Assembly: GCF_900112765.1 (NCBI RefSeq)
Contig: NZ_FOMZ01000003.1
Span: forward strand, 1-64,000
Reading direction: 5' to 3'
DNA length: 64,000 nt
DNA from: Actinopolyspora alba
GTDB lineage: Bacteria > Actinomycetota > Actinomycetes > Mycobacteriales > Pseudonocardiaceae
The notes under the pieces were generated by a model. That model was given only the letters and a program-made list of their open reading frames with translations, searched no databases and had not been told where the DNA came from. Positions 4,858 to 49,575 of the stretch are shown here, in pieces (the first letter of the stretch is position 1; every line of letters begins with the position of its first letter). The position numbers were made by a program, and so were the translations under genes.

Positions 4858-5715
4858 ATGCCCGTACGAAGCCCGCTGCAACCAGGACAGCAAACCCCCC
4901 GCCGTCCGGTGCCGTCCGGTATCGAGCGTCCCGAGTACGTCGACAAACCGGCACCGCGGCGCAATACCGATCCCGACGTGCAGCCTCCCGAAGTGATCGA
5001 TGCCATGCGTGTCGCGGGCAAGCTCGCGGCCCAGGCGCTGGAGGAGGCGGGCAAGGCGATCCGTCCCGGTGTGACCACCGACCACGTCGACGCCGTGGTG
5101 CACGAGTTCTTCGTCGACAACGGGGTCTACCCGTCCACCCTCGGTTACCGCGGGTTTCCGAAGTCGTGCTGCACCTCGTTGAACGAGGTCATCTGCCACG
5201 GGATACCCGATTCCACGGTGATCGAGGACGGGGACATCGTCAACGTCGACGTGACCGGATACATCGGCGGTGTGCACGGTGACAACAACGCGACGTTCCT
5301 CGCGGGAGAGGTCTCCGAACAGGCCCGGTTGCTCGTGGAACGCACCCACGAGGCCACGATGCGCGCGATCCGTGCGGCGCAGCCGGGGCGGCAGCTGAAC
5401 GTGATCGGACGAGTCATCGAGTCCTACGCCAAGCGGTTCGGCTACGGCGTCGTACGGGACTTCACCGGACACGGCATCGGTCGCTCGTTCCACAGCGGCC
5501 TCGTGGTGCTGCACTACGACGAGCCGTCGGTGCAGACGGTGATCGAACCCGGCATGACGTTCACCATCGAACCGATGATCACGCTCGGGACTCACGAGTA
5601 CGACGTCTGGGACGACGGCTGGACGGTTACGACCAGTGACAAGAGTTGGACCGCGCAGTTCGAGCACACCATTCTGATCACCGAGGACGGCAACGAGATC
5701 CTCACGCGTCCCTGA
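4858..5715 (+). CDS. map: Type I methionine aminopeptidase
   Basis: A dinuclear-metal peptidase that removes the initiator methionine in the cytosol. The 285-residue product has a proline-rich extension of about 40 residues with PxxP elements, as in mycobacterial MapB, then the pita-bread fold. Metal-ligand segments are visible: [19 protein letters not shown] (two Asp), GHGIGRSFH (His), TIEPMI (Glu) and FEHTILIT (Glu). The ATG is preceded by TAGAGT six bases upstream (possible leaderless -10) and also by GAGG. Synteny with the preceding lipoprotein and PIN genes is the same as in Mycobacterium. Confidence 0.95.
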
Positions 5716-32616: not shown

Positions 32617-32634
32617 GCGACGTGGTCCAAGCAA

Positions 32635-32776
32635 GCAACGGTCAGGAAGCCGGTGTGAATCCGGCACGGCCGGCGCCACTGTGACCGGGGAGCGGTTTTC
32701 CCACGAATGGTCACCGGGAGTCACCCGGGAAGGCCGGAGAAGCGCGTCGATCCGGGAGTCAGGACACTGCCGTTGC
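32635..32776 (+). promoter_or_regulatory. Cobalamin riboswitch upstream of the chelatase gene
   Basis: P1 is GCAACGG (32635-32641) pairing with CCGTTGC (32770-32776). The core shows GGAAGCCGGTGTGAATCCGG, GCCACTGTGACCGGGGAGCGG and the B12 box AGTCAGGACACTGCC. The right P1 strand GTTGC can alternatively pair with GCAAC at 32785-32789, a possible switching helix, before the ribosome site AGGAAGGA (32809-32816). Cobalamin binding should lower expression of the downstream gene. Confidence 0.95.
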
Positions 32777-32825
32777 TGCGTTCCGCAACCAGGGGCGTCC
32801 GAGACCCTAGGAAGGAATACCAGCG

Positions 32826-35030
32826 ATGACCGCTGCCACATCGGCACCGTCCACCGTGCGCTACCCGTTCTCCGCGGTTGTCGGGCACGACGATCTGCGA
32901 CTGGGGTTGCTGCTCAACGCGGTGTACCCGCGTATCGGCGGGGTGCTGGTGCGGGGCGAGAAGGGCACCGCGAAGTCGACCATCGTGCGTGCGCTCGCTG
33001 CCCTGTTGCCCGCTCTCGACGTCGTCGAGAACTGCCGCTTCGGTTGTGATCCCGCCGAGCCGGACACGGACTGCCCCGACGGGCCGCACGACGAGGCGAC
33101 GGCCGGTGCTCGTCGTCCCGCGCGCCTCGTGGAACTCCCGGTGGGGGCTTCCGAGGACCGCCTGGTCGGATCGCTGGACGTCGAACGCGCGTTGACCGAG
33201 GGAGTCCGCGCCTACCAGCCCGGGTTGCTCGCCGCGGCCAACCGCGGGGTGCTCTACGTCGACGAGGTCAACCTGCTGCACGATCATCTCGTCGACCTGT
33301 TGCTCGATGCCGCCGCCATGGGCCGCTCCCACGTCGAGCGTGAGGGGGTCTCGCTGTCGCACGCGGCGTCGTTCCTGCTGGTCGGCACCATGAACCCGGA
33401 AGAGGGTGAGCTGCGTCCCCAGCTGTTGGACCGCTTCGGGCTGACCGTGCAGGTGGCCGCTTCGCGCGAGGTCGACACACGTACCGAGGTGGTACGTCGT
33501 CGACTGCACTTCGAGGCCGATCCCGTCGGGTTCGCGAAGGAATGGGCGGAGGAGGACGCCGAGCTCGCGCGACGCATCGCCGATGCCCGCTCCCGGGTCG
33601 ACTCCGTCCAGCTGCCGGACTCCGAGGTTCGCCGGATCGCGTCGGTGTGTGCCTCGTTCGAGGTGGACGGTATGCGCGCCGATCTGGTGCTGGCGCGTGC
33701 CGCGGTCGCGCACGCGGCCTGGCGGGGAGTGAACGCCGTCGCCGCGGCGGATGTGGAAGCCGCGGCGAGGCTGGCGCTGCCGCACCGCCGACGGCGCGAT
33801 CCGTTCGACGAGCCGGGCATGGACGAGCAGCAGTTGCGGCAGGCCCTGGCCGATGCCGAACAGGACGCCGAGCGGCAGGAGGCCTCGGCGGACTCGGTCA
33901 CGTCCGATTCGGACGGTGGTTCCGAGCCGAACGACTCCGAGCAAGGCCCCGATGCCGGCCCTGACGACGGCCCTGATGACGGCCCCGACGACGAGGACGG
34001 TTCCGGGGGTGGTGGCACCGGCGCTCCGGACGGCCCCGAGGGGCCCGACAACGCCCCCTCGGGAGGCGCCGAGGGGAGACCGCCCTCCGACGAGGATGCC
34101 GCCGGTAACACTGCCAACGATTCGGACGGGAACAGTTCAGACGGCTCCGGTGAAGCCCCACGAGAGCGGACTTCCGAGGCTTCGGACACCACGTTCCGGG
34201 CTCGGTTGCTAGAGATTCCCGGGCTCGGCGAAGGCGCGCCGGGACGGCGTTCGCGGTCGCGTTCCCGTACCGGTCAGGTCGTGCGCTCGTCCGCGGTGGA
34301 CGGTCACGGTGTTCACCTGCCCGCCACGTTGGCCGCCGCGGCGCCGCACCAGCGTTCCCGGGGACGTTCCGGCCCCGGCCTGCGGCTGCACGCCACCGAT
34401 CTGCGCCACTCCGTGCGCGAAGGGCGCGAGGGCAATCTGGTGCTCTTCGCCGTGGACGCCTCAGGGTCGATGGCTGCCAGGGAGCGGATGTCCGCCGTCA
34501 GCGGTGCGGTCATCGCACTGCTTCGCGACGCCTACCAACGCAGGGACAAGGTGGGAGTGGTGACCTTCCGGGGGACGGACGGCGAGATCGCTCTGCCACC
34601 GACCTCGTCGGTGGACACCGCTGCCACTCGAATGCGCAGGCTGCCGACGGGCGGCAAGACGCCGTTGGCGGGCGGGCTGCTCACGGCTCGCAAGGTGATC
34701 CGTACCGAGCGGATGCGTGATCCGCGGCGCCGCCCCCTGCTGGTCGTGCTCACCGACGGTAAGGCCACTGTGGGCGTCGACGCCGCGGGCGACGCCGCCA
34801 CGCGTAGCCGTCGCGCCGTGGACGACGCGATGCGTTCGGCCGCGTTGCTCAACGAAATGGGCGTGGCCTCCGTGGTGGTGGACTGCGAGAACGGGCCGGT
34901 GCGTCTCGGCATGGCCGACCGGCTGGCGCACGTGCTCGGAGCGCCCAACCTGCGGTTGGAAGAACTCTCCGCGGACAACGTCGCCGGAGTCGTGCGCGCC
35001 GCGCGGGAAGCCGGTGCGGTGCTCGCGTGA
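32826..35030 (+). CDS. ChlI/ChlD-type chelatase subunit (putative cobaltochelatase ATPase partner of CobN)
   Basis: A 734-residue fusion of an AAA+ ATPase and a von Willebrand A domain. Walker A is [10 protein letters not shown] (near residue 44), Walker [11 protein letters not shown]; a sensor region and a Pro/Asp/Gly-rich acidic linker (about residues 335-465) follow; the VWA domain carries the MIDAS motif DASGSM at Asp544 plus a second part [10 protein letters not shown]. It is the actinobacterial counterpart of BchI/BchD, expected to power cobalt insertion by CobN, encoded 11 kb away. Riboswitch control and the next gene, cobO, support that role rather than magnesium chelation. Confidence 0.9.
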
Positions 35031-35082
35031 CTCCGTTCCGTCGGGAGCGCACCGTCGTGCACGGTGTGGAGGCGATTGCTGA

Positions 35083-35088
35083 TACAAT
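35083..35088 (+). promoter_or_regulatory. -10 element (TACAAT) of the candidate small RNA
   Basis: TACAAT lies 7 bases before the first base of a two-hairpin element (35096). No good -35 is visible at 17 bases spacing. Confidence 0.5.
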
Positions 35089-35095
35089 GCGTGGT

Positions 35096-35178
35096 GTCCA
35101 CCTGACCCCCAGGGGTGGACCAAAGCGCCCTCGCGCTCCCGGCACCCCCAGGCCGGTTGAGTGCGAGGGCGTTCTCTT
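35096..35178 (+). ncRNA. Candidate small RNA with two C-loop hairpins (6C-RNA-like)
   Basis: Hairpin 1 (35096-35120) has GTCCACC pairing with GGTGGAC, extended by a T-G pair, and a loop containing ACCCCCAG. Hairpin 2 (35126-35171) has a 13-bp outer stem (one G-T pair), a TT bulge, an inner CCGGC/GCCGG stem and the loop ACCCCCAG, followed by TTCTCTT as a terminator tail. A TACAAT -10 sits 7 bases upstream. Two GC-rich hairpins with cytosine-run loops are the definition of the actinobacterial 6C RNA, though here each run is five C rather than six. It may instead belong to the leader of cobO; the terminator-like end argues for a separate RNA of about 83 bases. Confidence 0.7.
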
Positions 35179-35375
35179 GGCGTCCTGGACGAGGCGTGGT
35201 CCGTGGACGAGGCGTGTTTCCCGCGATCCGATGACGAGACCGGTGTCCGCTCGCGGTTCGGCCGTCCCGAACCCTCCGCACGCGACCGTGGTACCCACTT
35301 CACACCCTACCGCTGTCCACGCCCCTCGATCGGGACCGTGGGAGCGAACGACCGTACTCGCTTGGAGATCCTGCT

Positions 35376-35990
35376 ATGCCACAGGGACAACCGAACTCCG
35401 TACCGAACGACGGGTTGACCACCAGGCAGCGTCGCAACCGTCCGCTGCTCGCGGTGCACACCGGTGACATGAAGGGCAAGTCCACCTCCGCGTTCGGAAT
35501 GGCGTTGCGCGGCTGGAACCAGGGCTGGTCCATCGGGGTTTTCCAGTTCGTCAAGTCGGCCAAGTGGCGGGTGGGCGAGGAGTCGGCCTTCCGGGCACTC
35601 GGCAGGTTGCACGAGGAGACCGGCGAGGGTGGTCCGGTCGAGTGGCACAAGATGGGTGAGGGGTGGTCCTGGACCCGCAAACGCTCCACGGAGCAGGACC
35701 ACGCCGAGGCCGCGCTGGAGGGGTGGCACGAGATCGCCCGCCGGATCGAGCAGAGCAGGCACGACCTCTACGTGCTCGACGAGTTCACCTACCCGTTGCA
35801 CTGGGGATGGGTCGACGTGGCGGAAGTGGTGGAAACCCTGCGGCAGCGCCCGGGATTCCAGCACGTGGTGATCACCGGCAGGCGTGCTCCGCAGCAGTTG
35901 CTCGACGCCGCCGATCTGGCACTGGAGACCGGCAAGCTCAAACACCCGATGGATGCCGGTCAGAAGGGACAGAAGGGGATCGAGTGGTGA
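35376..35990 (+). CDS. cobO: Cob(I)yrinic acid a,c-diamide adenosyltransferase
   Basis: Adds the upper 5'-deoxyadenosyl ligand from ATP to the reduced cobalt. The 204-residue protein has the CobA/CobO/BtuR P-loop TGDMKGKSTSAFG, the conserved NQGWSIGVFQFVKSAKWRVGEE, a central WSWTRKR and VLDEFTYPLHWGWVD, and ends in PMDAGQKGQKGIEW, all hallmarks of the family. GGAG precedes the ATG. Its stop overlaps the GTG of cobB by 3 bases (GTGA), so the two are translationally coupled. The 197 bases between the small-RNA candidate and this start hold nothing else I recognise. Confidence 0.96.
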   Translation: MPQGQPNSVPNDGLTTRQRRNRPLLAVHTGDMKGKSTSAFGMALRGWNQGWSIGVFQFVKSAKWRVGEESAFRALGRLHEETGEGGPVEWHKMGEGWSWTRKRSTEQDHAEAALEGWHEIARRIEQSRHDLYVLDEFTYPLHWGWVDVAEVVETLRQRPGFQHVVITGRRAPQQLLDAADLALETGKLKHPMDAGQKGQKGIEW

Positions 35991-43030: not shown

Positions 43031-43180
43031 GCCGCACGGCGAGGAACTCGGTGCGAATCCGAGGTGGTCCCGCCACTGTGACCGGGGAGCGGTTCCCCAA
43101 GCGATGCCACGGCTCGTGCCACGGGCTGGAAGGCGGGGAACGACAGGCCATGATCCGGGAGCCAGGAAACTGCCTGCGGC
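43031..43180 (+). promoter_or_regulatory. Cobalamin riboswitch upstream of the Ni/Co transporter
   Basis: P1 is GCCGCA (43031-43036) pairing with TGCGGC (43175-43180). The core shows GAGGAACTCGGTGCGAATCC, CCGCCACTGTGACCGGGGAG and the B12 box GAGCCAGGAAACTGCC. A TTGACT (42995-43000) with GAGGAT 18 bases later may be its promoter. Downstream, the palindrome CGGGAATTCCCG (43221-43232) abuts the ribosome site GGGAGG (43232-43237), suggesting translational control. Confidence 0.95.
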
Positions 43181-49427: not shown

Positions 49428-49575
49428 GCGGTGGTCGGAGTCTCCTGGCTCCCGGATCATCGCTCGCTCCGGTCTTCCCATCTCCACGAGACAGTGACCG
49501 TCCACGGAGTTCGCTCCTCGGTGACAGTGGCGGGACCGCGCCGGACTCGCACCGGCTTCCTCCATGATCCACCGC
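49428..49575 (-). promoter_or_regulatory. Cobalamin riboswitch upstream of cobN (minus strand)
   Basis: Read on the minus strand, P1 is GCGGTGG pairing with CCACCGC at the two ends. The core has GGAAGCCGGTGCGAGTCCGG, GTCCCGCCACTGTCACCGAG and the B12 box AGCCAGGAGACTCCG, slightly off the usual ACTGCC end. A weak GGGG/CCCC hairpin and the leader ORF's ribosome site follow. It should repress cobN when cobalamin is plentiful. Confidence 0.93.

Follow-up and report, generated by a model that had tools for sequence, protein, structure and literature searches.

The locus and its two hairpins

Between the gene for a magnesium-chelatase-like protein of the AAA/VWA kind and cobO, in the 64-kb window (the whole stretch of DNA that was analysed, 64,000 nucleotides), lies an element that folds into two hairpins, with an extended -10 promoter sequence before it and a U-rich tail behind it (Table 1). 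The spacing from TACAAT to the base of hairpin 1 is 7 nt, and within 35096-35172 both hairpins display the octamer ACCCCCAG. The earlier note had described this arrangement from the letters, with the TACAAT 7 nt upstream and a TTCTCTT tail, and it is present as described, with two adjustments. Hairpin 1 stands at the positions 35096-35120 given there, and hairpin 2 is one pair longer than the proposed 35126-35171. The loops that were called identical do share ACCCCCAG, but they differ on their 5′ sides, U-GACCCCCAG in loop 1 and C-ACCCCCAG in loop 2.

Table 1. Features of the element, its flanking genes and the further copies in the same genome (G000)
Feature	Position	Strand	Description
Extended -10 promoter element, TGATACAAT	35080..35088	+	TACAAT at 35083-35088, TGA directly before
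Hairpin 1, GUCCACCU-GACCCCCAG-GGGUGGAC	35096..35120	+	8 pairs, the last being U.G
Loop 1, GACCCCCAG	35104..35112	+	with U35103 gives UGACCCCCAG
Hairpin 2	35125..35172	+	outer stem covarying, apical part near-constant; long stem, 2-nt UU bulge
Apical module of hairpin 2, CUCCCGG-C-ACCCCCAG-G-CCGG-UU-GAG with 2-nt bulge	35136..35161	+	signature across the family (column counts, alignment of 68 matches)
Loop 2, ACCCCCAG	35144..35151	+	from sequence and fold
U-rich 3′ tail UUCUCUU	35172..35178	+	presumed terminator end, from sequence
AAA/VWA magnesium-chelatase-like protein gene, upstream	32826..35030	+	VWA_2, AAA_lid_2, Mg_chelatase
cobO, corrinoid adenosyltransferase gene, downstream	35376..35990	+	CobA_CobO_BtuR
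Copy B	G000 C36:280329-280404		two hairpins; between corA and a small ORF
Copy C	G000 C36:131928-131984		one hairpin; between a GTPase-like gene and a PNPOx gene
Copy D	G000 C29:352684-352734		one hairpin; between the ABC-transporter side and an alanine dehydrogenase gene

The fold of 35089-35180 has an energy of -53.1 kcal/mol, against -38.3 ± 3.54 for 200 shuffled sequences (z -4.18), and none of the 200 reaches the stability of the natural sequence. The octamer taken by itself is only mildly unusual, because the 9-mer ACCCCCAGG, which occurs three times in the window (twice in the element) against 0.77 expected, reaches three occurrences in 4 of 100 shuffles. It is the conservation of the element, with double changes in its stems in the alignments of 21 and of 68 rows described below, that takes it beyond chance. 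Transcription is presumed to start at the base of hairpin 1, and the predicted transcript would then be about 83 nt long.

Conservation of stems and loops

In an alignment of 21 two-hairpin copies, double changes are found in 7 of the 26 pairs, and a 20-row alignment of hairpin 2 contains 36 double-change cells, against 15.0 in shuffled alignments, a number that is reached in none of 500 shuffles. A broader alignment of 68 diverse matches, which was fitted to a covariance model and hence leans towards that model, has double changes in 12 of 19 pairs (174 cells versus 55.9 shuffled), is 94.2% paired, and has a covariation score of 0.398 versus 0.137 ± 0.009 when shuffled. While the stems covary, the loop stays nearly constant: the columns CCCCAG are retained in 67 to 68 of the 68 matches, the preceding A in 65 and the first C in 63. 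In genome G015 the apical stem is altered (CCGAU/GUCGG, CCAAU/GUUGG) around an unchanged ACCCCCAG, and at one locus of G052 (L435) it reads CCCGG/CCGGG around GACCCCCAG. The loop has its variants. Loop 2 is CUACCCCAG in the A copies of G001, G002 and G006, where only CCCCAG is kept, some G015 copies have UAACCCCCAG, and three odd copies in G019 include two without CCCCAG altogether and one with CCCCAG alone. It seems clear from these comparisons that structure and loop are both under selection. The earlier note had read the doubled octamer as a sign of selection, and had proposed a search of homologues for compensatory stem changes and loop constancy; both were found.

Members L436, L437 and L438 of G019 are diverged: their C-loop is altered, their first hairpin is of another kind, and they are possibly a sub-family with another partner.

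Might the conserved hairpin be addressed to a protein? CsrB-type RNAs titrate an RNA-binding protein, and the apical hairpin of the present family might similarly be a decoy. In the 68 matches CUCCC, GGU and GAG of the apical stem hardly vary, which is more than base pairing would demand, and for CUCCC and GAG this excess of constancy might reflect a protein partner; multiple copies, or multiple hairpins per RNA, would also suit a decoy. However, two of the apical pairs (columns 20-45 and 21-44) vary with compensation, and no candidate protein has been identified. We regard titration of a protein as rather unlikely.

Promoter and 3′ end

Just upstream of the hairpin base, a TAnnnT motif is present in 198 of 202 distinct copies, which are related sequences; at the mirror-image position of the opposite strand none of the 202 has it. 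The motif ends 3-8 nt, mostly 5-7 nt, from the hairpin base; in one-hairpin copies that base was taken to lie a constant 10 nt ahead of the apical module. Applied farther upstream, the test gives 0-4 per class. When 211 distinct copies are clustered at 85% identity, 135 clusters result, and in 132 of them TAnnnT is found in one of two wider windows. At the other end, the T fraction after the stem is 0.37, against 0.20-0.21 further on (202 copies).

Judged by its sequence, the element has what is expected of a free-standing bacterial small RNA, namely a promoter and an end of its own (the consensus -10 and the U-rich tail) and a conserved structure. Given the spread through the family, the covariation, the fixed loop and the nearly universal -10, an autonomous small RNA is very probable. 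The window element appears to be a genuine small-RNA gene and is very probably its own transcription unit, which agrees with the layout of a complete, free-standing RNA that the earlier note had seen in it. If the RNA starts at the stem base and ends after the stem, as predicted, its single strands are therefore the loops, the 4-nt linker, the bulge and the tail.

Copies and distribution

The genome from which the window comes has four copies, the window copy being A. A whole-genome search finds three DNA-similar copies in this genome and in each of nine other Actinopolyspora genomes; the fourth copy in the own genome was gained through R2, a covariance model of hairpin 2. Within the Pseudonocardiaceae, R2 has matches in 206 of the 249 genomes searched, from 42 of the 46 genera. 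By this name, which we take to be the GTDB usage, we mean a GTDB-style grouping of Actinopolyspora with Saccharopolyspora, Amycolatopsis and Lentzea; NCBI instead has a separate family, Actinopolysporaceae. A closer search of one genome from each of four R2-negative genera (G011, G013, G062, G066) found no copy. In an order-wide draw R2 matches 51 of 298 genomes, all within the Pseudonocardiaceae, and in a phylum-wide draw 2 of 396, the own genome and G714; these counts are lower bounds because large draws apply stricter filters. The G714 match (33.8 bits) is an ordinary stem with no C-loop and is not counted as a relative, so that the two draws yield no convincing relative outside the family. 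Another match, at L434, has no C-loop either and was set aside.

An exact-pattern scan of named genomes gives at least 118 stretches, in which the apical module is partly fixed by the search pattern. Among the 80 matches listed, all were recognised as Pseudonocardiaceae bar one labelled Nocardia sp. NRRL S-836, which we take to be mislabelled; its copy and neighbours resemble those of Lentzea.

The commonest form of the RNA has a single hairpin, as in 160 of the 204 family members fetched. Because such copies exist, the second loop is dispensable, and with one hairpin each in copies C and D the two-hairpin layout is not a family-wide trait. Where two hairpins are present, 41 of the 47 distinct copies share the same hairpin 1. 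The single genome G015 has 14 matches (L297-L310), several of them on shared contigs, including a weak 34.9-bit match (L310) that retains the loop core. Two of the G015 copies adjoin genes that, by eye, resemble those of ImmA/IrrE-like peptidases. In G021, R2 has four matches.

Genomic neighbourhoods

Neighbouring genes were called approximately, with a basic in-house ORF picker. Copy A follows the chelatase gene in, among others, Actinopolyspora, Saccharopolyspora (L181) and Halosaccharopolyspora (L046 of genome G014). Is it then a cis-acting leader or attenuator of cobO, or an element of the 3′ end of the chelatase gene? One might think so, as it lies on the same strand between the two genes and its place behind the chelatase gene is conserved. 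The distance to cobO, however, varies from about 0.2 kb in the window through 0.3 kb (L181), about 0.66 kb (L208) and 1.1 kb (L046) to 2.2 kb (L244), and the element has its own promoter and U-rich end. Moreover, RNAs with the same hairpin 1 occur at unrelated loci, and ald-linked copies sit between genes that point away or converge. A role in cis of this kind is very improbable.

The location of copy D is the one most common in the family: on one side the ABC-transporter genes point away from it, and on the other lies alanine dehydrogenase (ald, named from sequence without a Pfam call) in convergent orientation. Among the 118 stretches of the exact-pattern scan, which are often cut off at their ends, an ABC-type cluster is near in 92 and an ald-type cluster in 67. 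The 14 places in G015 have mostly unrelated neighbour genes. Dispersal of this sort, with several copies per genome and so many in G015, could be that of a repeat, mobile or REP/MITE-like, that regulates nothing. Against such a repeat, the copies occupy stable, orthologous places across genera, their stems carry compensatory changes, nearly all have the promoter motif, and no match was found in viral contigs (searched by exact pattern) or in plasmid or phage collections (searched with copy B only). We give the repeat hardly any weight.

Because no pathway is common to all the places, action in trans is a better fit than a role confined to corrinoid genes. The earlier note had considered a regulator of corrinoid genes, an idea that finds no support, given the paralogues with the same loop at corA, ald, PNPOx/GTPase and the mostly unrelated genes of G015. 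A cobalamin-specific role is unlikely, and the cobalamin neighbourhood is probably the location of the window copy and not its specific target. The window copy, whose position behind the chelatase gene is kept in several genera, may in addition have some local role.

A search with the cobalamin riboswitch model (RF00174) gives no aptamer match at 35096-35178; three such aptamers lie elsewhere in the window, at 32621-32789 (+), 43042-43171 (+) and 49438-49562 (-). About 30-56 nt upstream of hairpin 1 of copy B (L034, about 5274-5300) there is, in several genera, an element AAAAGATC-N7-CTAGAGACA with the dyad TCTCT...AGAGA, which looks like an operator for a regulator.

Relationship to 6C RNA

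The resemblance to 6C RNA (RF01066; B11 in mycobacteria) is plain. Both are small actinobacterial RNAs from free-standing genes, with GC-rich hairpins and C-run loops, and the two hairpins with C-run loops by which 6C is defined are found in the window copy and copy B. Hairpin 1 has GACCCCC in common with loop 1 of the 6C of its own genome, and 6C is the best Rfam match of the stretch. The earlier note had accordingly suggested a new 6C subtype and a scan with the 6C covariance model. In that scan the window copy scores 29.1 bits against a curated cut-off of 47 (E 0.067 in 521 bases) and the corA-linked copy B 25.9; within 10 kb of surrounding sequence, copy C gives no 6C match at E values up to 1, and copy D gives none up to 10. 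A true 6C of 68 bits is located at G000:C30:330521-330595, and R2 misses it. With scores so far below the cut-off and a true 6C coexisting, membership in 6C was rejected. Nor does any Rfam 15 family match the window copy or copies B, C and D above its gathering score.

Unlike 6C, the present RNAs have the constant octamer ACCCCCAG in the place of a longer C-run, and an apical bulged stem in hairpin 2. They mostly have one hairpin, occur as several paralogues, are restricted to one family of bacteria, and reside alongside a true 6C. Extra 6C copies in mycobacteria likewise give a genome a second or further C-loop RNA gene, and a passage of PMC9569102 reports them to be similar in structure to regular 6C; the family of the window element, in contrast, is distinct by score. 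We conclude that this is a new family of the C-loop small RNA kind, separate from 6C and apparently undescribed. No description of it was found in the literature, in a search that did not extend to the supplementary tables that accompany RNA-seq papers on S. erythraea (PMC3610266, PMC4008361, PMC3827479).

Could the family nevertheless be a diverged paralogue of 6C, its C-loops repressing translation at the G-rich ribosome-binding sites of several mRNAs? The shared GACCCCC, the two C-run hairpins and the best Rfam match would be so explained, and a passage of PMC10470900 describes repression, by either C-loop of 6C/B11, of mRNA with a G tract in the 5′ UTR. The low scores, the failure of R2 to find the own 6C, and the predominance of single-hairpin members stand against it. 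We hold this reading to be possible, if on balance doubtful. Its mRNA-pairing part overlaps with the explanation that we prefer; the descent from 6C does not.

The own genome has a further 6C-like two-hairpin element, with loops ACCCCCGG and UUCCCCCGA, at G000:C36:296052-296141 (L036 5053-5142). It scores 36.4 bits to Rfam 6C (cut-off 47) and 20.7 bits to R2, and lies directly behind a small ORF that, by eye, is heavy-metal-binding-like.

Candidate pairing partners

The explanation we prefer, and consider probable, is an autonomous small RNA that works by pairing of its loops with other RNA; structure and family are read from sequence, and we infer the expression and the partner. The segment 35096-35178 would encode, in full, an RNA of about 83 nt that acts in trans, starts at the hairpin base, closes one or two hairpins, ends U-rich, and pairs through its loops with G-rich RNA, as in 6C/B11. 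We infer action through the loops because the RNA has almost no other single strand.

What G-rich RNA might the loops bind? G-rich ribosome-binding sites of mRNAs are one class of candidates, a real prospect within the loop-pairing reading, by analogy with 6C/B11, though short of an even one. A genus search for the 10-mer complementary to the loop gives 202 sites, of which roughly 50, as extrapolated from the five of the own genome, would fall in the RNA genes themselves. The reversed control ACTGGGGGTC has 108 sites; it is not independent of tRNA-Pro(GGG), in which it also occurs. Outside the small-RNA copies, the 20 of 21 own-genome CTGGGGGTCA sites that were fetched comprise 17 in the sense of predicted ORFs, one antisense, one exactly at the anticodon of tRNA-Pro(GGG) and one intergenic. 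Of the two sites closest to a start, one (L316) is 45 nt inside its ORF, and the other (L319) is at the end of one ORF, 53 nt upstream of the next predicted start. Twenty sites from G007 and G006 divide into 14 sense, 4 antisense and 2 in the same tRNA-Pro(GGG). CTGGGGG is found before ATG 787 times, versus 577 for the motif backwards, and the permuted TCGGGGG 1183 versus 330; these counts, from 10 genomes, are crude and include internal Met codons. Target prediction at G-rich start sites, as the earlier note had envisaged it, thus shows no specific excess of CTGGGGG upstream of ATG in these genomes. The smaller excess of CTGGGGG than of the permuted motif, and the many sense sites within ORFs, also weigh against descent from 6C with repression at ribosome-binding sites.

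The sharpest single candidate is tRNA-Pro(GGG). The 10-mer UGACCCCCAG complements its anticodon loop CUGGGGG plus three bases, UCA, of the 3′ stem, and in the own genome as well as in G006 and G007 the exact 10-nt complement lies at this anticodon. Since 19 of the 20 genomes examined have CUGGGGG-UCA in this arm, whether the RNA family is present or absent (G031 has UGA), the complement of UGACCCCCAG is on hand wherever the RNA was checked. The match of hairpin 1 to the own tRNA extends to 12 nt, that of loop 2 of the window copy to 8, and the 10-nt duplex has a predicted energy of -19.5 kcal/mol. The tRNA match was noticed post hoc, and the following comparisons are to be read in that light. 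Among 7560 permutations of the 10-mer with the same composition, 53 match any own tRNA (49 distinct ARAGORN predictions) and two cover a complete anticodon loop, both that of tRNA-Pro(GGG). With the run of five C fixed (NNNCCCCCNN, n=1024), 10 match an own tRNA and one covers the full anticodon loop. The complementarity would also explain the usual weak U.G closure of the loop, the U pairing with the A of UCA.

Does the RNA then kiss the tRNA? The family may be a genome-encoded anti-anticodon RNA, whose hairpins would present (UG)ACCCCCAG, contact the whole 7-nt loop in a kissing complex of 7-10 bp, and so withhold or sense tRNA-Pro(GGG), which reads CCC/CCU, lowering or reporting its free pool. 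Within the loop-pairing reading, this tRNA as the partner is a minority prospect, and the full anti-anticodon proposal is speculative and slightly less likely still. The occurrence of the tRNA arm does not follow that of the RNA: the same tRNA-Pro(GGG) arm is found in genomes of the family without the RNA (G011, G013, G066) and in other families. Copies with UAACCCCCAG (some in G015), or with CUACCCCAG as loop 2 (the A copies of G001, G002 and G006), would pair less well, as would the three odd copies of G019. Further, m1G37 is expected in tRNA-Pro(GGG), and its N1-methylation would block one pair; the RNA might therefore prefer undermethylated tRNA and so act as a sensor of its methylation or of Mg2+. 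The copies linked to corA and to the chelatase gene are a hint in this direction, though no proof.

Such a complex would have partial parallels. The ColE1 RNAs RNAI and RNAII are kissing-loop antisense RNAs, and here too the proposed first contact is between fully complementary 7-nt loops, although the proposed partner differs in being a tRNA anticodon loop. T-box leaders recognise the tRNA anticodon through base pairing, as is proposed here; unlike them, the present RNA is free-standing and no leader, it complements the entire anticodon loop, and no pairing with the acceptor end is proposed. Pairing of a free-standing RNA with the whole of a tRNA anticodon loop is not reported in the literature searched, and if the tRNA is the partner, the family would represent such a mode of translation control. 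If the partners are mRNAs, the C-loop strategy of 6C would have arisen or radiated more than once in actinomycetes. In either case a structured, apparently undescribed RNA family is added to bacteria that include the makers of erythromycin, vancomycin and rifamycin, and the combination of a near-fixed loop with freely covarying stems makes for a sharp binding hypothesis.

G021 carries four partial copies of the 3′ half of tRNA-Pro(GGG) (G021:C1:5603930, 5651157, 5684984 and 5711559), which are probably attachment-site scars of integrated elements.
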